A stretch of 64,000 nucleotides of DNA from Pleomorphomonas diazotrophica (lineage in GTDB: Bacteria > Pseudomonadota > Alphaproteobacteria > Rhizobiales > Pleomorphomonadaceae): contig NZ_PJNW01000002.1 in assembly GCF_002844595.1 (NCBI RefSeq), forward strand, positions 124,001-188,000. Direction: 5' to 3'. Positions 46,200 to 60,384 of this stretch are shown here, one piece after another. The notes under the pieces were generated by a model. It was not told the DNA's origin. It saw only the letters and a list, made by a program, of their open reading frames with translations, and did not search any database. Position 1 is the stretch's first letter. Each line of letters begins with the position of its first letter. The position numbers and the translations under genes are program-made.

Positions 46200-46994
46200 A
46201 TGAACGGCGAGACGGCGCGACGGGATGACGAAGAGCGGGAGGCGGTGATCGCCGCTCGCGGTCTGGTCGTCGGCTTTTCCGGCGAACCGATCCTGGACGG
46301 CCTCGACATCGACGTCTGGCGTGGCGAGATCCTTGGAATCGTCGGCGGATCGGGTACCGGCAAGTCGGTGCTGCTTCGGACGATCATCGGCCTCAACAGG
46401 CGTTCGTCCGGCACGATCAAGGTGTTCGGCAAGGATTTCGATGCCATCTCCGGCCAGGAGCGGCAGGATATCGGCCGCCGCTGGGGCGTGCTGTTCCAGC
46501 AGGGCGCGCTGTTCTCCTCGCTCACCGTACTTCAGAACGTGGCCGTGCCGCTTCGCGAGCACATGCGGCTGCCCGATGGCCTTGCCGAGGATCTGGCGCG
46601 GCTGAAGATCGAGATGGCCGGCCTGCCGGCCGATGCTTGCGCCAAGTATCCGGCCGAGTTGTCGGGTGGCATGATCAAGCGCGCGGCGCTGGCGCGGGCC
46701 TTGGCGCTCGATCCGGACATCGTCTTTCTCGACGAGCCGACCGCCGGGCTCGACCCGATCGGCGCTGCCGAGTTCGACCAGTTGATCCTGAAACTGCGTG
46801 ACACGCTCGGCCTGACCGTGTTCATGGTGACGCACGACCTCGATAGCCTCGTCACCATCACGGACCGCATCGCCGTGCTGGGCAACCGCCGCGTTCTAGT
46901 GGATGGAACGTTCGCCGAGCTCAAGTCCTTCGACCACCCATGGGTGCGCGCCTACTTCAACGGCCCGCGCGCCGAGCACTTCACCTTCGGATAG
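46200..46994 (+). CDS. mlaF: MlaF/MCE transporter ATP-binding protein
   Basis: A 264-residue ABC ATPase. Walker A is GGSGTGKSVLL, the Q-loop is LFQQGALFSSLTV (typical of MlaF), the signature is ELSGGMIKRAALARAL, and Walker B is IVFLDEP. Three bases separate it from mlaE. Confidence 0.92.
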   Translation: MNGETARRDDEEREAVIAARGLVVGFSGEPILDGLDIDVWRGEILGIVGGSGTGKSVLLRTIIGLNRRSSGTIKVFGKDFDAISGQERQDIGRRWGVLFQQGALFSSLTVLQNVAVPLREHMRLPDGLAEDLARLKIEMAGLPADACAKYPAELSGGMIKRAALARALALDPDIVFLDEPTAGLDPIGAAEFDQLILKLRDTLGLTVFMVTHDLDSLVTITDRIAVLGNRRVLVDGTFAELKSFDHPWVRAYFNGPRAEHFTFG

Positions 46995-47002
46995 GAAACG
47001 CC

Positions 47003-48655
47003 ATGGAATCTCGGGCCAACTATGCGGTGATCGGCGGCTTCGTCCTGGTCATGCTGACGGTCGCCCTCGCGTTCCTCGGCTGGCTCGGCAACGCCGGCGA
47101 GAGCCAGCGGCAGGCCGAGGTGCGGGTGGTGTTCTCGGGCGCCGTGACTGGTCTTTCCACGGGATCGGCGGTGCTGTTCAACGGCATCAAGATCGGCGAG
47201 GTGCGGGAACTCCGGCTCGACGAGAAGGATCCGCGCACCGTCATCGCCCTGATCCGGGTGAACCGCGACGTGCCGCTCAAGACCGATACCCGGGCCATGC
47301 TGTCCTATCAGGGCCTCACGGGCGCGGCGACCTTGCAGCTCGAAGGCGGTTCGCGCAATGCGCCGGGCCTGTTCGATGCGGCGCCAGACGGCATGCCAAC
47401 CATGCTGGGCGAGATCTCGCCCTTCCAGGACATTCTCGAAAGCGCCCGCAACGTGCTGACACGCGCCGACAGCGCCATGGCGGCGATCGATGACTTCATC
47501 ACAGAAAATGGTCCGGCCTTCAATCGCACCGTCAACAACGTCGAGAAGTTCTCGGCAGCGCTGGCCGACAATTCCGACAACATTTCCAAGGCGATGGTGT
47601 CGATCTCGTCGGCTGCCGACTCGATCGGGCAAATCGCTCAGGACTTGAAGGGCGCGGCGGCGCAGGTGACGCGCATCCTCGACGCCGTCGATCCCAAGCG
47701 GGTGACGGAGATCACAGAGCGACTGGCCAAGTCGTCGGAACAGCTCAACGCCGTGCTGGAGCGCGCCAACGTCATCGCCGAGGGTATCGATCCGGCCACG
47801 GTGAACGGCGTCGTCCAGAATGTCGCCGACGCGGCGCGGACGCTCGACGAGACCATCGCCCAGGCGAAGACCATCCTGGGCGCCGTCGACCCGCAGGAGG
47901 TCGACCGTCTCGTGGCGAGCCTCACCGAAACGTCGGACGAGTTGCGCGCCACGGCCGCCCGCGCCGATGCCCTGCTGGCGGCTGTTGATACCGACAAGGT
48001 GCGCTCTGTGGTATCGGCGGTCGACACCGCCTCACAGAATATTGCGGCGGCATCCGGTTCTCTCGGCATGGTGGTGGAAGACACACGTCAGACGCTCGGC
48101 GCGGCGCGCAGCGTCGTCGAGGCGGTCGATCCGGCGAAGATCCGCTCGACGGTGACCGACGTCAGCGACTTCGCGGCCATGCTCAAAAGCTACAAGCCGC
48201 AAATCGACTCCATCATGGCCGACGTCAACCGCGCCTCGGCCAGCCTCGCCAATCTCGGCGATACCATCGATGCGCGCACTCCCGACGTTGATCGCATCGT
48301 CCGCGACACGCGCACCCTGGCCGAACAGCTGAACGGCATCGCGGCGCGCGCCGACGGCATTCTCCAGAAGGTGGACGGCTACGTCACTGGCGATGGGCAG
48401 GGCCTTGTCGCCGAGGCGACGGCGGCGGCGAAATCGATCCGCGAGGTGGCCGACAAGCTCAACCAGCAAGTCGGGCCGATTGCCGACAATGTCTCGAAGT
48501 TCTCGAGCCGGGGGCTCGACAGCGTGGTGGCGCTCGCAGATCAGGGCCGGCAGGCCTTGGCGCGTCTTGACCGTGTGCTGCAGGGCGTTGAAAGGAATCC
48601 GCAACAGTTCATCTTCGGTGGGCAGGGCGTACCGGAGTACGCGCCGCGCAGATAG
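47003..48655 (+). CDS. mlaD: MlaD/MCE substrate-binding protein, long form
   Basis: A 550-residue MCE protein. An N-terminal anchor (NYAVIGGFVLVMLTVALAFL) is followed by the MCE domain at about 35-115 (FSGAVTGLSTGSAVLFNGI, YQGLTGAATLQLEGG). The rest, to about residue 530, is a long helical region with repeated hydrophobic heptads, as in tunnel-forming PqiB/YebT-like MCE proteins. It should span the periplasm to carry lipid. Start at ATG 47003 follows AGGAAACGCC. Confidence 0.88.
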   Translation: MESRANYAVIGGFVLVMLTVALAFLGWLGNAGESQRQAEVRVVFSGAVTGLSTGSAVLFNGIKIGEVRELRLDEKDPRTVIALIRVNRDVPLKTDTRAMLSYQGLTGAATLQLEGGSRNAPGLFDAAPDGMPTMLGEISPFQDILESARNVLTRADSAMAAIDDFITENGPAFNRTVNNVEKFSAALADNSDNISKAMVSISSAADSIGQIAQDLKGAAAQVTRILDAVDPKRVTEITERLAKSSEQLNAVLERANVIAEGIDPATVNGVVQNVADAARTLDETIAQAKTILGAVDPQEVDRLVASLTETSDELRATAARADALLAAVDTDKVRSVVSAVDTASQNIAAASGSLGMVVEDTRQTLGAARSVVEAVDPAKIRSTVTDVSDFAAMLKSYKPQIDSIMADVNRASASLANLGDTIDARTPDVDRIVRDTRTLAEQLNGIAARADGILQKVDGYVTGDGQGLVAEATAAAKSIREVADKLNQQVGPIADNVSKFSSRGLDSVVALADQGRQALARLDRVLQGVERNPQQFIFGGQGVPEYAPRR

Positions 48656-48705
48656 AAAAGGGCCAGGGTTCGCAACGATACTCGCGGTCGCGCGTTGCTT
48701 TTCAC

Positions 48706-48866
48706 GCATCTGCGCCTTCCGAGAAGTCTGCAACTTCTCGCGCAGATGCTCTAGGGTTTACGCATTTGCGCCTTCCGAGAAGTCTGCAACTTCTCGCGCA
48801 GATGCTCTAGGTTTTACGCATTTGCGCTTTCCGAAAAGTCTGCAACTTTTCGGGCAGATGCTTTAG
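48706..48866. repeat. Three tandem copies of a 50-base palindromic repeat
   Basis: Copies at 48706-48754, 48762-48810 and 48818-48866, period 56. Each has outer arms GCATYTGCGC/GCGCAGATGC and an inner stem closed by a TCTGCAA loop; the inner stem reads CGAGAAG/CTTCTCG in copies 1-2 and CGAAAAG/CTTTTCG in copy 3. Ends are CTCTAG or CTTTAG. A fourth copy is at 10439-10485. It lies between mlaD and its lipoprotein partner. Confidence 0.88.
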
Positions 48867-48872
48867 GAGGCT

Positions 48873-49496
48873 ATGTTGGTTTCAGTTCGTTCGGGCCGGC
48901 GCACGGCCTCTTTGGCGACGGTCCTCCTTGTTTTCAGCCTTGCGGGCTGCTCGACGCTCGGTCTCGGGTCGACGCCCAAACCCGACGACATTTTCGACCT
49001 TGCCGCGCCAACCGCTTTCGACGGCTCGACCAGACGATCCTCGGCGCAAATCCTGGTGCCGCTGCCGAACGCCAGCGATGCCCTGTCCTCGGCGCGCATT
49101 GCCGTTCGCGCCGATGGCGGGTCGATCTCCTATCTGCCCGGTGTCTCCTGGTCGGACGAGTTGCCGCCGCTGATCCAGACGATCATGGTGCGCGCCTTCG
49201 AGAACTCCGGCCGGGTGAAGGCGGTGGGCAAGCCGGGCGAAAGCCTCGCCATCGACGATCAGGTGATCGTCGACATCCGCGCCTTCGAGCTGGACGTCAC
49301 TGGTTCGCCGGCCGCCCATGTCACGCTCGGCGTCAAGCTGCTCGACGAGCGCAACGGCAAGGTGCGGGCCAGCAAGGTATTCGATGTCAGCCGTCCCGCC
49401 GCGTCGGATCGGCCGAAGGACGCCATCACTGCCATCGATCAGGCCGCGTCGGCGGCGGTGGCCGAGGTGGTGGTCTGGACGGCCGGGGCGCTGTAG
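48873..49496 (+). CDS. MCE-associated lipoprotein (PqiC/ABC transport auxiliary family)
   Basis: A 207-residue lipoprotein. The lipobox SLAGC puts the lipidated Cys at residue 26. The mature part fits the ABC transport auxiliary family (PqiC-like), which partners MCE proteins at the outer membrane: FDLAAPTAF strand, VRAFENSGRVKAV, then IDDQVIVDIRAFELDV. It completes the mlaE-mlaF-mlaD operon. Its AGGAGG ribosome site (48865-48870) is formed partly by the end of the third palindromic repeat. Confidence 0.82.
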   Translation: MLVSVRSGRRTASLATVLLVFSLAGCSTLGLGSTPKPDDIFDLAAPTAFDGSTRRSSAQILVPLPNASDALSSARIAVRADGGSISYLPGVSWSDELPPLIQTIMVRAFENSGRVKAVGKPGESLAIDDQVIVDIRAFELDVTGSPAAHVTLGVKLLDERNGKVRASKVFDVSRPAASDRPKDAITAIDQAASAAVAEVVVWTAGAL

Positions 49497-49515
49497 CTCC
49501 TCGGCGTCACGCTCC

Positions 49516-50151
49516 TCACCAGCGGAGAAAGCGCCGGCCGATCAGGAAGCCGGCCGCCGTCACTATGGCTATGGCGATCGTGTACCAGGTCGCCACGAAC
49601 AACGGGCTGTCGTCGGGGCAGTGCCAGGCATAGATGGCCGCCGCGATGCCACCGGCCGCAAGGCCCGCGGCGGCGCCGGCCATGCCGGGGTGTTCCGGAG
49701 CGCCCTGGCGGACCGAGTAGAGGAGGGCGGCAAGCGGAGCGATCGACAGGGTGGGCACGAAGACAAGGCAGAAGCTCCAGTGCAGCCCCTTCATGCTCGC
49801 CCCCCACGCCTCCCGCGGCAAGACGAACAGCTCGGTCGCAATGCCGGCCAGCAAGAGGACAAGCGGCAAGATCAGGGACATGCTCGCTGAGCGCAGCGAC
49901 ACCCCCGGTTTGCCGATACGGAAGGCGAGGCGCGTGGCGGTGGTTGCCAGAAGCAACGTCAGTCCGAGCTTGAAGGCGACACGCGGCGTGCCGATCGCCT
50001 CGCTCATGTTATCGCGGACGCCATAGGTCGACAGCAGCAGCCCGGCGGAGAGCACCACGCCGATTGCCAGCGCGCTCAGGAACAGCGGGCCGAAGCGGAC
50101 CCGAACCCGCGCATCCCTGGCCAGGAGTGTGATGAGGTCATCCGTTTGCAC
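49516..50151 (-). CDS. nrsF: NrsF-type anti-sigma factor (DUF1109)
   Basis: A 211-residue inner-membrane protein with six predicted helices and a short cytoplasmic N-terminus, matching the DUF1109/NrsF family that holds SigF-type ECF sigma factors inactive. It has two Cys, one in the fourth helix region (HWSFCLVF) and one in AWHCPDDS; paired Cys are important in Caulobacter NrsF. It overlaps the sigma gene by 14 bases (50138-50151) and is the last gene of the operon. Confidence 0.85.
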   Translation of the reverse strand: MQTDDLITLLARDARVRVRFGPLFLSALAIGVVLSAGLLLSTYGVRDNMSEAIGTPRVAFKLGLTLLLATTATRLAFRIGKPGVSLRSASMSLILPLVLLLAGIATELFVLPREAWGASMKGLHWSFCLVFVPTLSIAPLAALLYSVRQGAPEHPGMAGAAAGLAAGGIAAAIYAWHCPDDSPLFVATWYTIAIAIVTAAGFLIGRRFLRW

Positions 50152-50704
50152 GTCTGTCGCTCCGATAGAGGGCCGCCAGTCCTTTGAGCGCCCGATGCAG
50201 GGCCACCCGCACGGCGCCTTCGGTCATTTGCAGCCGCTCGGCCGTTTCGCGAATGCCGGCGCCGCCGAGCGAGATGGACCGCACGATCTCACGCTGCGGA
50301 TCCCGCAGGCTGTCGACCATGCGATCGACGTCGACCTGATCGGCGCCCTCATCCTGGCGTGTGGCTTCCAGCGTTTCCATAACGTCTTCGATCCGTACGC
50401 TGACTTGGCGGCCGCGTCGACGCAGGCTATCGACCAGTTTGTTGCGCACGATGGCCGACAGCCACGGACCAACCGGCCGAGACATGTCCCAGGTGCCGCG
50501 CTTCAGATGAACAGCCAGCAGGACTTCCTGTACCACGTCTTCCACGTCGCTCGCCGGGGCGCCGAACTGATCGCAGCGCCGGCGGGCAATCGACCGGAGA
50601 TAGGGCGTAACGGCCTTCAGGAAACGATGATAGGCCAGCGTATCGCCGGCCATCGCAGCCCGCATCCAAGCCGCCCATTCCTCTTCACGGGCCGAGTGGT
50701 CCAT
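50138..50704 (-). CDS. sigF: ECF sigma factor, SigF type
   Basis: A 188-residue ECF sigma factor. Region 2 covers about 25-95 (AYHRFLKAVTPYLRSIARRR, EDVVQEVLLAVHLKRGTWD, WLSAIVRNKLVDSLRRR) and region 4 about 130-180 (IRETAERLQMTEGAVRVALHR). It belongs with SigF-NrsF pairs that respond to metals or oxidants. ATG 50704 is preferred; an in-frame ATG at 50833 overlaps the doxX stop (ATGA) and would add 43 non-sigma-like residues. Confidence 0.88.
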   Translation of the reverse strand: MDHSAREEEWAAWMRAAMAGDTLAYHRFLKAVTPYLRSIARRRCDQFGAPASDVEDVVQEVLLAVHLKRGTWDMSRPVGPWLSAIVRNKLVDSLRRRGRQVSVRIEDVMETLEATRQDEGADQVDVDRMVDSLRDPQREIVRSISLGGAGIRETAERLQMTEGAVRVALHRALKGLAALYRSDRRANG

Positions 50705-50829
50705 CCGCCGCCATCCCCCGATGCGGGCCGTCGTCAACTCGGCAGCGCCGGAGTTGAGATGGGAGATGAGCCTATCGTCGGGCAAAAGGCAAGAGAACGC
50801 GCCACCTCGGTGGGGTGTTGTGACGTCGG

Positions 50830-51351
50830 TCATGACGGGCGCAAGGGGAGGCCCGCGACTCTGGTAGCCAGGTGGTCGAGCGACAGACGGCCCTGCCCAT
50901 GCCGCATGACCGCAAGCGCCATCGCCGCCCAGGTGATGTGGATCGGCCAACCATCGGGAACGGTGAGCTGGACGACGGCCGTCATGACCAGGAGACCAAG
51001 ACCTGCGAACCGGGTGGCAAGGCCCAGAACGAGAAGCGCCGGAAGGACGATCTCGCCGCAGCCGGCGAGGAAGGCCACTACCGCCGGGGCGGGGAAGGGA
51101 TAGGGGCCGCCCGGCAGGTGCAGCATGAACTCCTGGCTGAACAGGTCGACTGCCGTTTCGTTCAACTGCAGGAAGCCCTGCCATTTCAGAATGCCGGAGC
51201 GCCAGAAGGGAACGGCAAGTGCCACGCGCAGGACGAGTTGCACCAGGTCCGGCTGCGCGGCGGCGCGGATCAGTTGGCTGGCTGCCGCCACGACGCCCGC
51301 CAGTCCGAGGCGGGCGTTCGTGTGCGGTACGGTATCAGGCGTGCTCGACAT
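50830..51351 (-). CDS. DoxX family membrane protein
   Basis: A 173-residue DoxX protein with four helices and a short N-terminal arm. Characteristic parts are LVLRVALAVPFWRSGILKWQGF, the FAPAVVAFLAGCGEIVLPALL helix and LGLATRFAGLGLLVMTAVV. DoxX proteins are common in bufferin operons and may support the quinone/oxygen-linked chemistry or membrane insertion; the role is unknown. It overlaps bufC by 17 bases. Confidence 0.85.
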   Translation of the reverse strand: MSSTPDTVPHTNARLGLAGVVAAASQLIRAAAQPDLVQLVLRVALAVPFWRSGILKWQGFLQLNETAVDLFSQEFMLHLPGGPYPFPAPAVVAFLAGCGEIVLPALLVLGLATRFAGLGLLVMTAVVQLTVPDGWPIHITWAAMALAVMRHGQGRLSLDHLATRVAGLPLRPS

Positions 51352-52141
51352 GATCGGCCTCTGTCCGGATGTGAGAGAAGGCCCCGGCGGAGATCATCTC
51401 GCCGATCGCCCCAGGAAGATCGAAAGCGGCGTCGGCGTCGAGTGCGGTTGCGGCGGCTGCCGCAAGTGGGTCTCCGTCGAAGAGGGCCCGAAGAAAGGCG
51501 AAGACGCCCGAGTGCAGGCGGCGGACCGTCACCTCGTCATCGATCCGGGCAATCAGCCCGTGTTCGGACTGGTTCTCCACGCGGCCGACGGGACCGCTAC
51601 CGCGGTTCATGGCGAAGATGGTGATGGCAGGATGGGGCGAGGACACCAGACGCGCCGCCGGATGCGGCTGGAACCTCAAGGCGGGCAGGTCGTCCGGCGG
51701 TACGGCCGCCAGCGCCTCGGCCGCAAGGACTGGTGCGTCGGCAGCGTGGTAGCTGTCGAGCCACAGGCGCTCGATGCGAGCCACATCGGACAGCCAGGGC
51801 ATGTCCTGCGCGTAGGCATAGCGGTCGATGAAGTCGGCAAAGTTGCGTCCATAGTCGAACAGCAATGGCGAGGTCGGCGGCGTCTCGCGGATGTGGAAGC
51901 GGGCCATGGCGCGGAAGAAATCCGGCCCGGTGATGCGCTCGACCGCCGGGAAGATCGAGGCGAGAGCGGCGATCAGGCTGACCGTGACGTTGTTTCGATA
52001 GACGTCGTAGCGCTTCTCCGCCCGCTTGCCGCGCGGGCCGGTCACCAGCGCCGGCGTTTCGGCGTCGGGGAAGAGTAGGGCGGCCGAAAACGGGCCGGCG
52101 AAGTCTGCCCGCGGCAGCGGCAGGATGTCAGCCGTGGGCAT
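51335..52141 (-). CDS. bufC: BufC/HvfC-type DUF2063 partner protein
   Basis: A 268-residue protein of the DUF2063 family, which binds the precursor and helps the MNIO enzyme. The diagnostic N-terminal half has [39 protein letters not shown] and [15 protein letters not shown]. It overlaps bufB by 14 bases (52128-52141), so the two are co-translated. Confidence 0.88.
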
Positions 52142-53051
52142 GGGAGGCCTCCCTATGGCCCGCGTGTCGATCCAGAATGGCCTGGGCGGCCAGCGCCTCG
52201 GCGCGAAGCACCGGCCAGTCGGGGATCTGGCTGTCCCATTCGATCAGCGTGGGAGCCGGTCCGCGACGGGCGATCACGATTTCATAAAGGCGCCAGACGG
52301 CATCGGCGACCGGTCCGTCGTGGCTGTCGATCAGCAGCAGGTCGCCTTCGTCATCCGCCTGTTCGGCATGGCCGGCGAGATGGATCTCGCCCACCTTCGA
52401 CAGCGGGAAGTCGCGGAGGTAGTCGAGCGCCGAGAAGCCGTGATTGGTGGCGGACACGAAGACGTTGTTGACGTCGAGCAGCAGGCCGCAGCCGGTTCGC
52501 CGCGAAATCTCGCTGATGAACTCGGTCTCGCTCATCGAGGAGTCCTTGAACAGCACATAGGTAGAGGGATTTTCCAGCAGGATCGGCCGGCCGATGGCAG
52601 TCTGCATCTCATCGATGTGGTCGCAGACGTGGGACAGCGTCGCCGCGGTATAGGGCAGGGGCAAGAGGTCGTTCAGATAGGTGTCGAGGTGGGTTGACCA
52701 GGCTAGATGCTCGGAGACGAGAGCCGGCTCGTAGCGGTCGACCAGGGTCTTGAAGCGCGCGAGATGCTCCCTGTCGAGCGGCTGCGGGCCGCCCAGCGAC
52801 ATGCAGACGCCGTGCAAGGAGACGGGGTAGTCGCGGCGTATGCGTTCGAGCGCCCGATGCGGCGGGCCGCCGGCGCCCATGTAGTTCTCGGCGTGCACCT
52901 CGAAGAAGCCCTGCGGGCCGCTCTCGGCGATGATCGCTGCGAGGTGTTCCGGCTTGAAGCTGGTGCCGGCCTGCCCGGCTGGCGAAATCCTCGGAAAGCG
53001 GAGCGCCGCGCCCGTTTCCAAAAGGCTGGACGTCATTTCGGCTTTGGCCAT
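52128..53051 (-). CDS. bufB: BufB: DUF692 multinuclear non-haem iron oxidase
   Basis: A 307-residue TIM-barrel protein of the DUF692/MNIO family, which modifies Cys residues of a peptide using an iron cluster and oxygen. Metal-site motifs are visible in order: [52 protein letters not shown] and IEWDSQIP. Start ATG is the complement of 53049-53051 with GGAGG about 6 bases upstream. It is separated from bufA by a palindromic element. Confidence 0.92.
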
Positions 53052-53089
53052 GGTCGCCTCCACTTTCCGAACGCTTGGGTCAGAGCATC

Positions 53090-53187
53090 ATCCGACCGGA
53101 GTGAAACGAGGATCGGCAAGATGATGCTTCACAAACAAGAACCTAGAGCGCCGATCTGATTCAGTCAGATCGAACAGCGCTCTAGAT
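53090..53187. repeat. Double palindromic element between bufA and bufB
   Basis: Two stems: AGCATCATC...GATGATGCT (about 53093-53139) and AGAGCGCCGATCTGA/TCAGATCGAACAGCGCTCT (about 53145-53183), the latter bounded by CTAG at both ends. Same modular style as the elements at 12697 and 61279. It could protect the upstream bufA transcript from 3' decay. The closing CTAG provides the bufA stop codon. Confidence 0.82.
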
Positions 53188-53496
53188 GTCGCGGTCGAGC
53201 GGCATGAGCGAGCCGTGGCGACCGCCCGGCAGCTCAAGCGAGGCGCAGGTGCCGCCCTGAACGAATTTCCAGGCGTTGCCCTGGAAGTCCTTCATCGAGG
53301 TGCCCTGGCAGGTCGTGCCCGGACCGGCGGCGCAGTCGTTCTGGCCCTTGAGTGCCACGCCGTAGCACTTCTCCTTCTTGGCGGCCATCGCGGCGTCGGC
53401 CTCCGCCTGGGTCAGCGGGGCGGCGCTCGCGAGGGTGGCGAGGGCCGTGGTGACAGCGCCGGCGAGAAGGGCGGTGGTGACGGAAGTCCTCAGCAT
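53182..53496 (-). CDS. bufA: BufA1: bufferin precursor (DUF2282)
   Basis: A 104-residue secreted RiPP precursor. A signal peptide spans about residues 1-25 (cut at LASA). The mature peptide carries the four conserved Cys of the DUF2282 family: Cys44 (EKCYG), Cys55 (NDCA), Cys63 (TTCQG) and Cys84 (GTCAS). In described bufferins, BufB/BufC convert Cys to thiooxazole groups and the exported peptide binds copper. Start is the ATG complementary to 53494-53496. The TAG stop (53182-53184) lies in the end of a palindromic element. Confidence 0.9.
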
Positions 53497-53546
53497 GATG
53501 TTCTCCGTGTTTCGAGACGCGCCCTTTGTCCTGGGCACGTAGGGAA

Positions 53547-53573
53547 CTCGGAGGCGGACTACGTTTTGTTACA
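53547..53573 (-). promoter_or_regulatory. ECF-type promoter for the buf operon
   Basis: On the minus strand TGTAAC (complement of 53568-53573) is followed 17 bases later by CGAG (complement of 53547-53550). A TGTAAC-type -35 box with a CGnn -10 box is typical of ECF promoters, and SigF autoregulation is known for related operons. It would put the start of transcription about 45 bases before the bufA ATG. Confidence 0.5.
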
Positions 53574-53581
53574 GATGCGTT

Positions 53582-53599
53582 GATCACGAAGGCGTGATC
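53582..53599. promoter_or_regulatory. Perfect dyad just upstream of the buf promoter
   Basis: GATCACG-AAGG-CGTGATC, a perfect 7-base inverted repeat with 4-base spacer, sits 8 bases upstream of the proposed -35 box. It could bind a second regulator; no candidate is encoded nearby. Confidence 0.4.
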
Positions 53600-53626
53600 G
53601 CGTGAAGGCAAGGATATACGCCAACG

Positions 53627-53654
53627 AAAAAAGGGCGCCGCGTGGCGCCCTTTT
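53627..53654. terminator. Bidirectional Rho-independent terminator
   Basis: Stem GGGCGCC/GGCGCCC with a 4-base loop, flanked by AAAAAA on the left and TTTT on the right. It ends the minus-strand GPR-like gene (T-run of six) and insulates the buf promoter. Confidence 0.85.
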
Positions 53655-53680
53655 CCGTGATGGCTCTTATACCGTCAGGC

Positions 53681-56600
53681 TCAGCCGAGCTTGCCGCTGG
53701 CATGGGCCAGAAGCGTGTAGACCTTGCCGGTGTCGGAGTTCAGGTAGTTCTCGGCAAGGCGACCGTTCGGATCCTTCTGAACCGCCTCCTCGTAGAGCGC
53801 GCTGAAGTGGTCGATGTAACGATCGACGGCCTCGCGGAAGTCGGCTTCGCGGCCATAGCGGCGGCGCACCTCGTCGAAGGTCTGCTGACCCTGCAGCGTG
53901 TAGACGCGGCGCGTGAACACGTTGCTCTCGCCGCGGCGATAGCGATCCCAGAGGTCGGCATAAGCATCGGGGTCGATCGAGCGGGCGATGTCGGAGGTCA
54001 GCGACCCCAGACCGTCCAGCGGGTTGCCAGCCTTGGTGCGGTCGGACGAGGGCAGGCGCGGCGACGGAGCGTCGTCGTCGTTGACGCGGCGCAAGAGGTC
54101 GGAGATCCAGCCGCTCGACCGCTCGCCGCGCTCATCGGCGGCCGGCTGACGGGTCGGCTCCTGGCGCCTCTCGGCGACGGCCGGGCGGGGCGGCTGGTTG
54201 GCCGGCTGGCGGCTGAAGGCGCGCGGTGCCTCCACAGGCTGCGACGGCTTCTGGGCCGGCAGGCTGCGGCTTGCCTGGGCCGACGCCTGGGCACGCACCG
54301 GCATTTCCGCCGTGACGCTCTCGCCGGGCAGCTGACGCGAGACGATCTCGGAGAGCTCGTTCAGGGCGCGGATCTGCTCGCTGACCACGCGGCGCATGGC
54401 GGCGGTGTGCTGGCTGGTCTCTTCCGGCAGGTCGAGGACACCACGGCTCAGATCCTCGCGGATCTGCTCCAGCTCCCGGCCGACGGCGCGGGTGGCCTTG
54501 CGCATTTCCTCGGTGGCGCCGGCGAAGCGGTCGACCGCCGAACCGATGGAGGCGTTGATCTCGGAGATCAGCTCGCCGCGCACCCGCTCGATGGTCACCT
54601 GCGTCTTGCGGCCCTCCTCTTCGGCGCTGACCGACAGCTGCTCGAGCTGCTGGGTGACGCCGTTCATGGCCGTTTCGGCGTTGCGGGCCAGCTGATAGCC
54701 GACGTCGCGGGCGCGGCGCTCGGCGTTGGACAGCGTGTCCTGGATCTGGCCGGCGATGGACTGCAGGCTTTCGGACATCGTCTCGGTGCGCTCCTGCAGC
54801 GTGGAGACCACGCCGTCGAGGGCGGCGAGGCGATCGCCGATGACGCCCTGGAGCGTTCCGCCGACCGACGACAGCGCGCGGGCCGACGACTGCAGGTCGC
54901 CGGTCTGCTCGGCGAGCGAGGAGGCGATGGTGCCGATGTCGGCCAGCACCGTCCGCGACACCTCGCGCAACACCTCGGTCGTCTCGGCGACGGTGGTGCT
55001 GGAGGCGGTCGTGTCGGCGACGACGCGTTCGAGCGACAGGCGCAGGTCGCCGGTCTGCTGCTCCAGACCGCGCTCGATGCGGGAGAGGTTGCCGGCCGCC
55101 TGATCGACGATGGCACGGAGGTTGCGGTTGGCACCGTCCACCTGTTCCAGAACCGAGACGACGTCGGTCTTGACGCGCGACGCAGTGTCGTCGAGCGACT
55201 GCAGGACGTCGCGGCCCTGTTCGTCGAAGGTGGCCATCAGCGACAGCGTCGCCTGCTTCAGGGCATCGGCCGCCTCGTTGCCGCGCAGGGTGATGGCGCG
55301 GCTGACGCCCTCGCCACCCTTGGCCAGCGCCGACAGCACGTCGTTTGCGGCATTGCGGACCAAGCCGGCCACTTCCTCGCCACGGCTGCCGACGGCCTCG
55401 TCGAGGGCGCGGGTGCCGGACAGGAAGGCGTTGGCAAGATCGCCGCCACGGCCATCCACCAGCTCGGCCAGTTCGGCCATGCGGCGGGTGAGCAGGTCGA
55501 CCACCTTCTCGGCGCGGCCATCCATGGCGCTCGCCGCGGCTTCGGTGCGGGCATCGAGCACAGCCTCGAGGTCGCGCGTCGCGTCGGCAAGGCGTTCGGT
55601 GGCCGCAGCGATGGCGGCCGCCAGGATCTCGCCCGACCGCTCGGTCTCGCCGGCGATGCGGCCGGTGACCGCCTCGGCAGAGCCGATGAGGTTGGAGCGC
55701 GCGCGGGCAGTCTCTTCCGAAAGACGGTCGGTGACCTCGTCGATGGCGCCGATCAGGCCGGCACGCGCCCTCTCGCTCTCGCTGACGAGGCGGCCTTCGA
55801 CGGCGGTGATCGCCTCGTAGACGTTCTCGCGGGCCTTCTGGCTCTCGGTGGAGAGCACGTCGGACAGGGTGGTGATGAGCTCGTTGAGGGTCCCGTGCGT
55901 TTCATCGCGCAGGCCGGCAAGGCGATCCTCGGCGCCGGCCAGCGACTGGCTGACGGCGAGCGACACACTCTCGCCCTCGGTGGCAAGCCGTGTCGCGGCG
56001 CCGTCGATGGCGGCGACCACCACGCTCCGGACCTGCTCGCTCTCGCCGGCGAGACGTTCGGACATGCCCTCCAGCACGCTGGAGACCACGTCGCGTGCCC
56101 GGACGGAGCCGCTTTCCATTTCGTGGGCGATGGCGGTCATGGCCTCGGTCACGATGGCCTTGGCGCGATCGGCCTCGACACGCAGCTTGTCGGCAGCCGC
56201 TTCCACGGAACCGGTGAGGTCTTCGCGGGCACGGGCGCTTTCCTTCTGGAGCACCGACGCCGCGTTGATGAGGGCGCGGGCCAGTTCCTCGCGGGCCGTC
56301 TCGGTCTGGCTGCCGAGCATGTCGACGATGGAGGCGAGGCGCTGGGTGAGCGACACCTCCAGCGAGCTGGCGCGGCTGTCGAGCGTCTCGGCGACCTCGA
56401 ACACCTTGGAGCCGAGCGACACGTTGATCTCGGCCACCTTGTCGGCGAGCGTCTCGGTGAACTCCTCGGTCTTGCGCTGCAGCGAACGGCCGACGGCGTC
56501 GAGGCGCCCTTCGATGGCGTCGACCATTTCCGACTGGCCGGCCGAGAAGGCCTGGGCCAGATCGCGGGTGCGGGCCATCAGGGTTTCAGTGATCTGGCGG

Positions 56601-59600
56601 GCACGGCCGTCGAGGGCGTGGTCGATCAGCTCGATGCGGTTGTCGAGGGTGCCAGTCAACGCATCCGCCTTGTCGGCGAAGGTGCGGGTGGCGTCCTCGA
56701 GGCGCTTGCCGACGCTGCCGTCGAAGGCGGCGAGCTGGCCTTCCAGCGCTTCACCGAAGCTGCCGGCGCGGCCTTCCAGCGAGGCGAGCACCGCCTGGGT
56801 GCGCCCGTCCAGCGTCTCGACAAGAGCGCCGGAGCGCTTGTCGAACTCCGCGCCCAGCCGTTCGACGCGCTCGTCGATGAGGCCGGTGATGGCGCCGGAG
56901 CGGCCGCTGAGGGTCGCCTCAAGGGCGTTGGTGCCTTCGGAAAGGGCGTTCTGGATGGTGAGGGTACGCTCGGCCAACGCCGCTTCGATGCGGGCGATCT
57001 GCTCTTCGAGCGAGCCGTCGAGCATCGACGTACGGCTGACGAGGCTTTCCACCAGTTCGGCGGCGCGGCCGTTGATGATTTCGTCGAGCACGCGGATGCG
57101 CTCGGCGAAGCTCACCGACATGCTGTCCGAACGATCGTCGAGCAGGTTGGCGATCTGGCTGCCGGCGGCGAGGATGGTCTCGGCGACGCGCTCGCCACGG
57201 GCGTTGACCGCGCGGGCGATCTCGGCGCCGATGGTCGACAGGCGCTCGGAGAACAGGCTGCCGCTGTCGGCGAGCAGCGTCTCCACCGACAGCGTGGCGC
57301 CGTCGATGATGCCGCGGATCGACGTGGTGCGGTCGTCCATCATGCGGGCCACTTCGTGGCCGGTGGCGGCGATGCGATCGGCAAGATCGACGCCGTTGAC
57401 GTTGATCGCCGTGTGGACGGCTTCGCCGGTGACGGCCAGCTTGTTGACGAGGTCGGTGCCGCGCTCGGTGATCGTCGAGGTGATGAGGTTGCCGGTCTGG
57501 TCGAGGCGGTCGGTGATCTCGCTGCCGCGGATCGACAGATCGAGCAGCACGCCTTCGGACGTGGAGCGCAGCGTTTCGTTGATGGTCTCGATCTTCTCGG
57601 CCATCGCCTTGGAGGCCTCGTCCGTGGTGCGGGCGACCTGCTCGCTGACGGCAAAGGCACGCTGGGAGATGTCCTCGGCGAAGGTCTGGCCGGAGCGGGC
57701 CAGCGTTTCGTCGATCTCCTTGGTACGCAGAGAGAGGTTCTCTTCAAGCGCCGCAACGGTGGTGTCGATCGAGAAGATGATGGCGTCGCTGCGGTCGCGC
57801 AGCAGCGTTTCCAGCGAGCCGGTGCGACTTTCGAGGGTGGAGGCGATCTCCTGCGACCGCTCGGTCAGCACCTTGTCGAGATTGTCGGTGCGGGTGAGAA
57901 GCTGCGTCTCCATGACCGACGTCGAGGTGGCGACGGTCGAGACCAGTTCGTTGACGCGATGGCCGATGGTGCGGTCGAAGTTGGCCGACTGCTCGGCAAG
58001 GGTGGCGCCGAACAGCTCGGCGCGCGTTGCCAGCGTCTCCGCGAGTTCGGCGGTGCGGCCGGAGATCGTCCGGTCGATGAGGTCGGTCTTGTCGGTCAGC
58101 TCGGCGCTGAGCTCGCCGGTGCGCGCCTCGATGGTGCTGGCGAGCTGGGCAGAACGCAGGGCCAGCGTGCTTTCCAGCGCCTCGCTCTTCTCGGTAAGGG
58201 CGGTGGAGAACTCGGCGGTGCGGCTTTCCAGCGTGCTGCCGATTTCCTGGGCCTTCTCGCCCAGCGCCTTGCTGAGCTCGAAGGTGCGGACGGACAGCGT
58301 CGACGACAGTTCGTCGGACCGGGCGGCGATGGAGGAGACGATCTCTTCGGTGCGGGCCGACAGGGTGAAGGCGATGTCGCCGGTGCGATCGGTGAGCGTC
58401 GACGACAGCTCCTCCGAGCGGGCAGCCAGCGTCGAGACCAGTTCCTCGGTGCGGGAGGCCAGCGTGAAGGCCAGCTCGCCGGTGCCGTCGCTGAGGGCCG
58501 CCGACAGGTCGGCTGCGCGGGTGGCAATGGTGGAGACGAGTTCGTCGGACCGCTTGGCGAGTTCGCTGCCGAGCTGCTCGGTTTCCTTGCCGATGGCGGA
58601 GGTGAGGCGGCCACCCTCCTCGGTGATGGTGCGCGTCAGCGCTTCGCTGCGGCTGGAGATCGCCTCGTTGATGGCAGTGCCGGTCTCGGCAAGGCCGCCG
58701 ATCAGGCTTTCGCGCTCGGTGCTGAGCGTCGCCAGGAAGTCGGCGCCGCGCTTGGCTACGGTCTCGGTCACCGAGTTTCCGGCAGCCTCGAAGGCCAGCG
58801 CCAGTTCCTCGGCCTTGGAACCGAAGGTCCGCGTGACGTTGCGGCCGGTCTCGTCGATACGGTTGGTCAGGAGATCGCCAGCGGTGCGCAGCTCCTCCGA
58901 AAGGTTCTGATGGGCACCGGAAATGGCGACGCGCGCCTTCTCGGCGTTGGCGATCACGCTCTCGCGCTGGCTGACCAGTTCCTCGACCAGGCTGCGGATG
59001 CGCATCTCGTTTTCGGCATAGGACCGTTCGAGCGAGGACACCTCGTTGTGGACCAGCACTTCAAGCTCGCTCGCACGGGCGAGGGCCCGCTCGATGCCGT
59101 CGCCCATGGCGGCGACTTCGCGGCGAATGGCCTGACCGACGGTGACCACGTTTTCCTTGGCCGACATCTCGGGCTCGGCGAGCTTGATGGCGACTTCAGT
59201 GAGCGAACGGGCGGCGAGCCTGAGATCCTGGGCGCGCCAGACCATGGTGGCAATGGCGAAGAACAGCACCACCGGCGCAACGATGCCGCCGACCAGCGCG
59301 AAGCCATCGGGACGGGCGAACAGGGCGGCCGGGTCGGCCAGCACCGAGAAGTCGCCAAAGGCTGCGCGGGCGACATAGAAGCCGCCGGCAACCCAGACAA
59401 CCGAGGCGAACAGGGCGATCCAGAAGGGAAGGGCCGACGGCCGGCGCTGCATCTGATAGAGCAGCGTCGCAACGGACCGACGGTCGTCATTGGCCGGGGC
59501 GCGGCCGGGGCGCGCGGAGGCGCGCGGTGCGTCGGCGGGCTCGGCAAGCGACTGGCGCGAGGCGGTGTCAGAGCTTTCGTTGAAGGTATCCTGGTCGGGC

Positions 59601-59704
59601 GATGTCGGCGCATCGGCCGAGACGCCGAAGTCGATCTTCAGGGCCTCCTCGACGGCGGAGAGAGCGGCCTCCGCCGGATCCGATGCCTTGGTGCTTTTTA
59701 CCAT
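53681..59704 (-). CDS. Giant polar-growth ring protein (GPR/RgsE homologue)
   Basis: A 2007-residue protein. Two transmembrane helices lie at about 92-115 and 134-157. From about 160 to 1750 it is an almost uninterrupted helical region of degenerate 11/22-residue units (S/T-L-x-x-R-T/S-x-E-L pattern), related to the apolipoprotein repeat. The C-terminus (about 1880-2007) is a compact basic/aromatic domain. Size, membrane anchor and repeat match GPR of Agrobacterium and RgsE of Sinorhizobium, which form a ring at the growing pole. The ATG at 59704 has GAGGG 5 bases upstream. Confidence 0.85.
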   Translation of the reverse strand: MVKSTKASDPAEAALSAVEEALKIDFGVSADAPTSPDQDTFNESSDTASRQSLAEPADAPRASARPGRAPANDDRRSVATLLYQMQRRPSALPFWIALFASVVWVAGGFYVARAAFGDFSVLADPAALFARPDGFALVGGIVAPVVLFFAIATMVWRAQDLRLAARSLTEVAIKLAEPEMSAKENVVTVGQAIRREVAAMGDGIERALARASELEVLVHNEVSSLERSYAENEMRIRSLVEELVSQRESVIANAEKARVAISGAHQNLSEELRTAGDLLTNRIDETGRNVTRTFGSKAEELALAFEAAGNSVTETVAKRGADFLATLSTERESLIGGLAETGTAINEAISSRSEALTRTITEEGGRLTSAIGKETEQLGSELAKRSDELVSTIATRAADLSAALSDGTGELAFTLASRTEELVSTLAARSEELSSTLTDRTGDIAFTLSARTEEIVSSIAARSDELSSTLSVRTFELSKALGEKAQEIGSTLESRTAEFSTALTEKSEALESTLALRSAQLASTIEARTGELSAELTDKTDLIDRTISGRTAELAETLATRAELFGATLAEQSANFDRTIGHRVNELVSTVATSTSVMETQLLTRTDNLDKVLTERSQEIASTLESRTGSLETLLRDRSDAIIFSIDTTVAALEENLSLRTKEIDETLARSGQTFAEDISQRAFAVSEQVARTTDEASKAMAEKIETINETLRSTSEGVLLDLSIRGSEITDRLDQTGNLITSTITERGTDLVNKLAVTGEAVHTAINVNGVDLADRIAATGHEVARMMDDRTTSIRGIIDGATLSVETLLADSGSLFSERLSTIGAEIARAVNARGERVAETILAAGSQIANLLDDRSDSMSVSFAERIRVLDEIINGRAAELVESLVSRTSMLDGSLEEQIARIEAALAERTLTIQNALSEGTNALEATLSGRSGAITGLIDERVERLGAEFDKRSGALVETLDGRTQAVLASLEGRAGSFGEALEGQLAAFDGSVGKRLEDATRTFADKADALTGTLDNRIELIDHALDGRARQITETLMARTRDLAQAFSAGQSEMVDAIEGRLDAVGRSLQRKTEEFTETLADKVAEINVSLGSKVFEVAETLDSRASSLEVSLTQRLASIVDMLGSQTETAREELARALINAASVLQKESARAREDLTGSVEAAADKLRVEADRAKAIVTEAMTAIAHEMESGSVRARDVVSSVLEGMSERLAGESEQVRSVVVAAIDGAATRLATEGESVSLAVSQSLAGAEDRLAGLRDETHGTLNELITTLSDVLSTESQKARENVYEAITAVEGRLVSESERARAGLIGAIDEVTDRLSEETARARSNLIGSAEAVTGRIAGETERSGEILAAAIAAATERLADATRDLEAVLDARTEAAASAMDGRAEKVVDLLTRRMAELAELVDGRGGDLANAFLSGTRALDEAVGSRGEEVAGLVRNAANDVLSALAKGGEGVSRAITLRGNEAADALKQATLSLMATFDEQGRDVLQSLDDTASRVKTDVVSVLEQVDGANRNLRAIVDQAAGNLSRIERGLEQQTGDLRLSLERVVADTTASSTTVAETTEVLREVSRTVLADIGTIASSLAEQTGDLQSSARALSSVGGTLQGVIGDRLAALDGVVSTLQERTETMSESLQSIAGQIQDTLSNAERRARDVGYQLARNAETAMNGVTQQLEQLSVSAEEEGRKTQVTIERVRGELISEINASIGSAVDRFAGATEEMRKATRAVGRELEQIREDLSRGVLDLPEETSQHTAAMRRVVSEQIRALNELSEIVSRQLPGESVTAEMPVRAQASAQASRSLPAQKPSQPVEAPRAFSRQPANQPPRPAVAERRQEPTRQPAADERGERSSGWISDLLRRVNDDDAPSPRLPSSDRTKAGNPLDGLGSLTSDIARSIDPDAYADLWDRYRRGESNVFTRRVYTLQGQQTFDEVRRRYGREADFREAVDRYIDHFSALYEEAVQKDPNGRLAENYLNSDTGKVYTLLAHASGKLG

Positions 59705-60384
59705 GATACCCTCATGTCCGCATACTTGAAGCCGGACGGTATCGGAAGCGTACTCCCGGTTGCCGTCCCGGTCGAACCATGTGCTCACCCGGCCTAGGCG
59801 AGACACATGAACTCGGGCTTTCTCGACCGCCACGCCGCCTCCAGGAGACAGCAATGGCTACGCCGGCCGAGGATTGCCTATCAAAACGTAATGGCACAAC
59901 AGGCTCTTCCGGACAAGGAAAGCTCCCCCGGTGGCCCATATTGTTAACAAGCCGCTAATAGGCGTTGTACATTGTGACTCATCTTCTGGTTGTTATTTCC
60001 GGGCCCGAGGGCGGATGTTCAGAATGGCTGGCGATCCCTCGCCGTCGACGCGCAAGCCGGCTTCCATGGTGGGGGAGATGCCGGGCGGACACAGTCAAGA
60101 CGCTAGGCCATCGAGTTGAATATTGGCTTAAAACATATGGTTACCGGCTGCCTTGCCGCCTGTCGCGATCCTGGCGGGCGTTCGGTCTGCACCCTCGATG
60201 TCCTCCTGAGACCGGCAGGCCTTGCTTCACGGCGACAACAGGCTTGGATTGCATCAGCTGAATTAACCATATCTTCAGAATTCCAGCCGCTCCTCAAGGC
60301 CGACGGAGCGTCATCGAGCCCCATCCGGCAACAGGATGGAAGGCGCGGAGGACCTCGCCGAGGGGCGAAAAGAGACGATCTGCG
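59705..60384. other. Large intergenic region between GPR-like gene and Hpt-like gene
   Basis: About 680 bases, less GC-rich in the middle (around 59935-59995 and 60113-60150) than its surroundings. It should hold the promoters of both divergent genes. TTAACCAT at 60263-60270 matches a half-site of the cell-cycle regulator CtrA, which would suit genes linked to growth; this is weak evidence. Short open frames here look accidental. No RNA gene was recognised. Confidence 0.4.

Follow-up and report, generated by a model that had tools for sequence, protein, structure and literature searches.

In bacterial gene clusters for bufferins, genes for a sigma factor and for NrsF have been reported in the Buf1, and not in the Buf2, type (PMC12452194), and three published systems are among the closest comparisons for the six-gene buf-sigF-nrsF locus of Pleomorphomonas diazotrophica that is the subject of this article. 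In Caulobacter crescentus, the genes CC3254-CC3257 (CCNA_03363-03366), which encode a DUF2282 protein, a DUF692 protein, the product of a third gene and DoxX, are controlled by SigF from promoters of the form GTAACC-N16-CGAA; NrsF carries two conserved periplasmic cysteines, and sigF-nrsF and CC3254-CC3257 are separate units, each with a SigF-type promoter (PMC3511200, PMC8224329). The SigF regulon, which includes bufferin genes, is raised by copper, and a sigF mutant is copper-sensitive (PMC8224329). In Sinorhizobium meliloti, RpoE7-EcfR7 and SMb20530-SMb20527 are encoded by divergent groups of genes of the same kinds; the mapped promoter is TGTAAC-N17-CGAA, and rpoE7 has a TGTAAC...CGAA promoter of its own (PMC6180224). 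Finally, in Cupriavidus metallidurans the same core genes (gigPABT), induced by copper and gold, are served by the extracytoplasmic function (ECF) sigma/anti-sigma pair rpoQ-rsqA, which is divergent and RpoD-dependent (PMC10304878).

The locus lies on the minus strand of a 64,000-nucleotide stretch of contig NZ_PJNW01000002.1 (positions 124,001 to 188,000, hereafter the window, to which all coordinates refer), in a genome of 4.5 Mb in 40 contigs. Its core is of a known kind, since published work already reports Buf1 clusters that hold genes for a sigma factor and NrsF, and bufferin genes that SigF controls under copper; what sets it apart is that sigF and nrsF follow the buf genes in the same direction. 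The bufferin operon is real and intact, and its co-directional arrangement with its own regulators is uncommon. The fuller reading proposed here, to which we assign a probability of about 0.72, is that this Buf1 operon is driven by its own ECF16-type SigF/NrsF pair, with feedback by read-through, a basal promoter for the pair, and a further input at a palindrome; the group name ECF16 is borrowed from the literature on relatives.

An earlier note on this DNA had claimed a bufferin operon of six minus-strand genes carrying its own SigF/NrsF pair, and had named four Pfam profiles by which it might be checked. All six genes are present in the claimed order, free of internal stops, each with a Pfam match, and the four profiles (PF10048, PF05114, PF09836 and PF06532) match with values over their cut-offs. 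The first gene, bufA (53182-53496, 104 aa), encodes a DUF2282 (Buf1) precursor (PF10048, 76.9 bits, cut-off 22.4) whose four cysteines (44, 55, 63 and 84) are intact, as had been claimed, and whose N-terminus resembles, by eye, a Sec signal. It is followed by bufB (52128-53051, 307 aa), for an MNIO protein that exceeds the NCBIfam cut-off for bufferin maturases (NF050167, 385 bits, cut-off 310; PF05114, 351.7 bits), and, adjoining it, bufC (51335-52141, 268 aa), for the DUF2063 partner protein (PF09836, 80.5 bits, cut-off 27.2). Next come doxX (50830-51351, 173 aa; PF07681, 60.8 bits, cut-off 23.6) and sigF (50138-50704, 188 aa), which encodes an ECF sigma factor (NF009165, 277.5 bits, cut-off 198; PF04542 and PF08281 above cut-offs), and the last gene, nrsF (49516-50151, 211 aa, GTG start), encodes a membrane anti-sigma factor of the DUF1109/NrsF family (PF06532, 183.7 bits, cut-off 26.8). 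Overlaps of 3-17 bases had been claimed to join the last five genes. Such overlaps exist at bufB/bufC (14), bufC/doxX (17) and sigF/nrsF (14), and not between doxX and sigF, which lie 125 bp apart; bufA and bufB are separated by 130 bp. A 348-aa sigma frame that would overlap doxX was rejected in favour of the frame that begins at 50704, a start that fits NF009165 (residues 4-183 on model positions 3-182 of 184) and aligns with the starts in nine other genomes of the genus. The only two cysteines of NrsF, Cys 128 and Cys 178, are present in all 15 loci compared; in the Bradyrhizobium japonicum anti-sigma factor OsrA, Cys129 is required for interaction with the sigma factor and Cys179 for the response to peroxide (PMC3420878).

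Co-directional placement of sigF-nrsF is uncommon outside the genus. In a sample of 14 Pleomorphomonas genomes, comprising that of the window and 13 others, matches to NrsF and MNIO above cut-offs occur together in 11 and are both missing from three, and in 10 of the 11 genomes with the locus bufA-bufB-bufC-doxX-sigF-nrsF lie on a single strand; the exception, G010, has the divergent arrangement, and its BufB shares 57% identity with that of the window. Among six other genomes of the family, three are divergent (G001, G002 and G003), one (G004) carries sigF-nrsF but no buf genes, and two (G005 and G006) have neither; in G003, MNIO matches number three and DUF2282 matches four. In the order's other families, 100 sampled loci classed with in-house hidden Markov models (HMMs) comprise 26 with a divergent sigF, 72 with none within ~7 kb, and two co-directional loci, L206 and L218, both under one family code; the DoxX, sigma and NrsF genes of L206 stand in a row according to Pfam, and L218 was classed by HMM alone. 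In a first set of 80 named loci nearest by BufB, tblastn places both sigF and nrsF 3' of doxX in five (L042, L043, L049, L074 and L092), among which L042 is not independent because it is the contig of L029 again, and HMM classing, from which L046, without bufA, was dropped, yields six of 79, the rearranged L096 being added. A phylogeny of 190 BufB rows, built rapidly with FastTree, subject to long-branch warnings and holding seven of the 10 co-directional genus loci, places the window in a supported group of 10 rows, every one co-directional, and requires four changes of the co-directional label, against 13.6 in shuffles. The nearest counterparts outside the genus are L043, L049 and L074 (Rhizobium sp. 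P32RR-XVIII, R. cauense and R. mesoamericanum), which share the co-directional order and the BufB clade and whose SigF is 80-86% identical. This layout may be among those whose frequencies are given in Fig. 3d of the published MNIO survey (PMC12452194). Other arrangements of the pair were also encountered: L085, L089 and other Burkholderiales loci have NrsF-like matches right after doxX with no sigma gene detected alongside, and L228 (Rhizobium daejeonense plasmid) and L230 (pAt3) present a tandem pair of NrsF genes after the sigma gene, and an NrsF gene without an annotated sigma gene adjoining.

Upstream of bufA, the earlier note had pointed to an ECF-like promoter, and this is borne out by a SigF (ECF16)-type promoter, TGTAAC-N17-CGAG (53573-53547, minus strand), conserved in all 10 co-directional loci of the genus. 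Its elements, TGTAACAAA and CCGAG, stand 76-79 bases 5' of the bufA start in each of them, with a spacer that varies, and a single change separates it from the published ECF16 consensus, (T/C)GTAAC-N17-CGAA (PMC8315932), which places it among target promoters. Unlike in Caulobacter and S. meliloti, no SigF-type promoter was detected 5' of sigF in any of these 10 loci, in a search of 260 bp that allowed up to two mismatches and spacers of 15-17. Among divergent loci the same element is perfect in L028 and L037, has two mismatches in L041 and is not found in L030 and L040; the three co-directional Rhizobium loci retain [CG]GTAAC-N17-CGTA 14 bases 5' of sigF, and CGTA also serves as the -10 element 5' of bufA in several of the divergent Rhizobium loci. 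Most simply, Pleomorphomonas would have lost the sigF promoter once the pair had become co-directional. With a SigF-type promoter upstream of bufA and none detectable upstream of sigF, autoregulation by SigF would therefore proceed via the buf transcript, and positive feedback by this route is plausible.

How the pair is otherwise expressed may depend on the 125-bp gap between doxX and sigF, whose best-conserved 28-column stretch (50797-50764, minus strand) surrounds CTTGCCGTTTG...ATGCG.TCA and is common to the co-directional groups of Pleomorphomonas and Rhizobium, with a mean pair identity of 0.73, as opposed to 0.59 over filled columns, in 12 loci. There is moderate evidence that this block may be a basal promoter of sigF-nrsF. 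The idea that it is a housekeeping promoter making the pair a separate unit, with negligible read-through and feedback, is doubtful: it draws on this moderately conserved block and on the RpoD dependence reported for rpoQ-rsqA of C. metallidurans, and it is opposed by a sigma-70 scan of positions 49400-53800, in which no promoter was found and the gap block was not recognised, as well as by the consideration that a pair without its SigF-type promoter would in that case also lack the autoregulation seen in other ECF16 systems (PMC3420878, PMC6180224). A terminator scan of the same region returned a single site, inside nrsF; its silence elsewhere is weak evidence, because it also missed an obvious hairpin with a T-run, seen by eye, after the upstream gene (~53650-53627).

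The most novel part of the locus appears to be a dyad adjacent to the -35 box, ATCACGCCTTCGTGAT (53598-53583, minus strand), a conserved candidate control site that may serve a putative second regulator, and whose TCACG begins at -24 from the T of TGTAAC. Its presence had been claimed before, and it is conserved in all 10 co-directional loci of the genus, where TCACG-N4-CGTGA scores 8-10 of 10, always at -24. The same distance is kept in the three co-directional Rhizobium loci and in S. meliloti 1021, where TCACGAAAGCGTGT stands at -24 from TGTAAC of the published SMb20530 promoter (PMC6180224), and the divergent L037 has the full 10 of 10 at -25. For wider counts, a SigF-type promoter was called with at most one mismatch in GTAAC plus CGA, and a palindrome at a score of at least 8 of 10 within 30 bases upstream of it. 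By these rules, the palindrome accompanies 31 of the 62 promoters in the named loci (31 of 50 outside the Burkholderiales), all at -26 to -23, and, with motif and region unchanged, 21 of the 41 promoters in a validation set of 100 further loci, across 10 of the 18 family codes represented. Validation spacings are -25/-24 (eight loci), -18/-17 (10 loci), and -27, -28 and -29 (one each). After removal of near-copies, the palindrome remains in 19 of 48 named and 17 of 36 validation clusters, as against means of 0.56 and 0.48 (maxima 4 and 3) in dinucleotide shuffles; the adjacent 30 bases further upstream hold it in three of 48 and four of 36, and when 60 half-site orders, TCACG among them, are compared, the runners-up reach 6 and 7, with a median of 0. 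In the named loci a dyad scoring 9 of 10 anywhere in 330 bases is found in 36 of 62 with, as against five of 17 without, a SigF-type promoter.

Four further near-matches, at one mismatch, occur in the genome of the window. A comparison of neighbouring genes for the palindrome's regulator, swamped by the shadow open reading frames (ORFs) of GC-rich DNA, gave no candidate. That the palindrome is the terminator of the upstream gene is disfavoured by its lack of a T run, by the separate hairpin with a T run that precedes it (judged by eye) and by the distance to the promoter that is kept elsewhere. A literature search made mostly without subscription papers found, among the papers listed, no mention of it for SigF/NrsF/ECF16 or DUF692 systems; the text of PMC4842269 does not contain 'palindrom', nor does that of PMC12452194 contain 'promoter'. 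The dyad recurs near a second class of promoter, which emerged from an exploratory analysis: among loci without a SigF-type promoter, a TTGATTTYC box, variants allowed, precedes bufA in 12 of the 17 in the named set and 18 of the 59 in the validation set, with shuffled means of 0.16 for 16 clusters and 0.38 for 55. Dyads of at least 8 of 10 lie 5' of this box at -43/-42 in seven and at -31/-30 in five of 22 clusters, five other offsets occurring once each, and the two main offsets differ by about one helical turn. Among the buf operons that lack a SigF-type promoter (L139, L162, L193, L083, L081 and others), TTGATTTYC-N2-3-TTGA-like boxes with TCAC...GTGA dyads are frequent 5' of bufA.

Dyads at set offsets from TTGATTTYC suggest that a single putative regulator serves both promoter classes. 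We know of no protein that binds TCACG-N4-CGTGA. In a wider proposal, which we rate at even odds, such a regulator would provide a second layer of control across the order, binding the palindrome at set distances from SigF-type or TTGATTTYC-type promoters; in Pleomorphomonas, SigF/NrsF would have moved into the operon and lost their own SigF-type promoter, so that SigF and the palindrome regulator would jointly gate one self-amplifying transcript. It is unlikely that the palindrome serves instead as an auxiliary element of the SigF promoter or of local DNA shape, and is no regulator site: its closeness to the -35 box at set distances would fit such a role, whereas it occurs at two main spacings, is lacking from 20 of the 41 validation promoters and from all 12 Burkholderiales promoters, and resembles dyads that stand at -43/-42 or -31/-30 from another box, 5' of buf operons that lack a SigF-type promoter.

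Under the reading of a self-regulated operon with palindrome input, periplasmic metal or oxidant stress would act on NrsF via its two cysteines and release SigF, which would fire the TGTAAC-N17-CGAG promoter upstream of bufA. BufB and BufC would then convert the two central cysteines of BufA into copper-binding thiooxazoles, and BufA would act in the periplasm; the copper role, the thiooxazoles and sensing by NrsF are carried over from relatives described in the literature. Read-through of the buf operon would place the downstream, same-strand sigF-nrsF under SigF-dependent autoregulation, basal transcription from a promoter in the doxX-sigF gap would hold the switch ready, and the conserved palindrome beside the -35 box could admit a second regulatory input. 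That oxidants, chlorine species or metals such as gold, chromate and cadmium, rather than copper, are the main signals for the cluster is improbable, even if ECF16 pairs elsewhere are reported to respond to H2O2 and singlet oxygen (PMC3420878), HOCl (PMC8315932), or chromium and cadmium (PMC3511200), and the gig genes to gold as well as copper (PMC10304878), since SigF-controlled bufferin-type genes matter in Caulobacter copper tolerance (PMC8224329) and BufB scores above the bufferin maturase cut-off.

Several observations weigh against the self-regulated operon and its proposed second input. The gaps of 125 bp and 130 bp allow separate transcripts, and four NCBIfam cut-offs are missed, namely those of the NrsF equivalog (97 vs 300), the HvfC equivalog (35 vs 142), HvfX by DoxX (61.4 vs 80) and BufA2 (25 vs 60). 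The promoter pattern alone is not significant genome-wide, because TGTAAC-N17-CGA has nine matches vs 19 for the reversed control; most of the remaining matches lie within long ORFs, and a stricter TGTAAC-N15-17-CGAA has three vs eight in the control. To the promoters named above that lack the palindrome must be added that three of the 21 validation matches (-27, -28 and -29) fall off both main spacings, that the -18/-17 class was not predicted by the first set, that, as one mismatch was allowed, some of the 41 validation promoters may have matched by chance, and that a dyad of 9 of 10 anywhere in 330 bases occurs in 23 of 41 validation loci with vs 17 of 59 without a SigF-type promoter. As for TTGATTTYC, the box was picked after inspection of the sequences and is also present in eight of 62 and two of 41 loci with a SigF-type promoter. 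Lastly, Caulobacter sigF is not strongly autoregulated under chromium or cadmium (PMC3511200), yet rises with copper (PMC8224329), RpoE7 promoter fusions in S. meliloti do not respond to H2O2, cadmium or chromate (PMC6180224), and deletion of rpoQ in C. metallidurans increased gig expression (PMC10304878).

Between bufA and bufB stands a strong hairpin (53190-53140, minus strand; -27.9 kcal/mol, z -6.6), which was considered as a conserved control element and rejected as such. Its core, CGATCTGANTNAATCAGATCG, is exact at five places in the genome, and it was not seen between bufA and bufB in any of the nine other co-directional genus loci; for these reasons it is best read as an inserted dispersed palindromic repeat, one that may alter the BufA:BufB ratio in this strain. 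A conserved leader hairpin 5' of bufA is likewise unsupported, with z values of -1.8, +0.3 and -1.9 in three loci and pairs that, by eye, shift between aligned loci. The gene upstream of bufA (53642-59854) has a 2057-aa product, and an open frame of almost equal length (2051 aa) runs along the opposite strand, probably an effect of codon make-up. On the other side, genes on the plus strand (46200-49496) for an ABC transporter ATPase, an MlaD/MCE protein and an auxiliary lipoprotein converge on the operon.

Bufferins, which are copper-buffering peptides, were recognised as a class only recently, and their regulation has been little studied. The palindrome offers a concrete lead to the missing regulator, and one that could be tested in S. 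meliloti 1021, where it lies upstream of a mapped RpoE7 target promoter and where the published inducers tried (H2O2, cadmium, chromate) drew no response (PMC6180224). The co-directional layout, together with the lack of a detectable SigF-type promoter for the pair itself, would represent a natural case in which a sigma/anti-sigma switch is built into the transcript that it targets.

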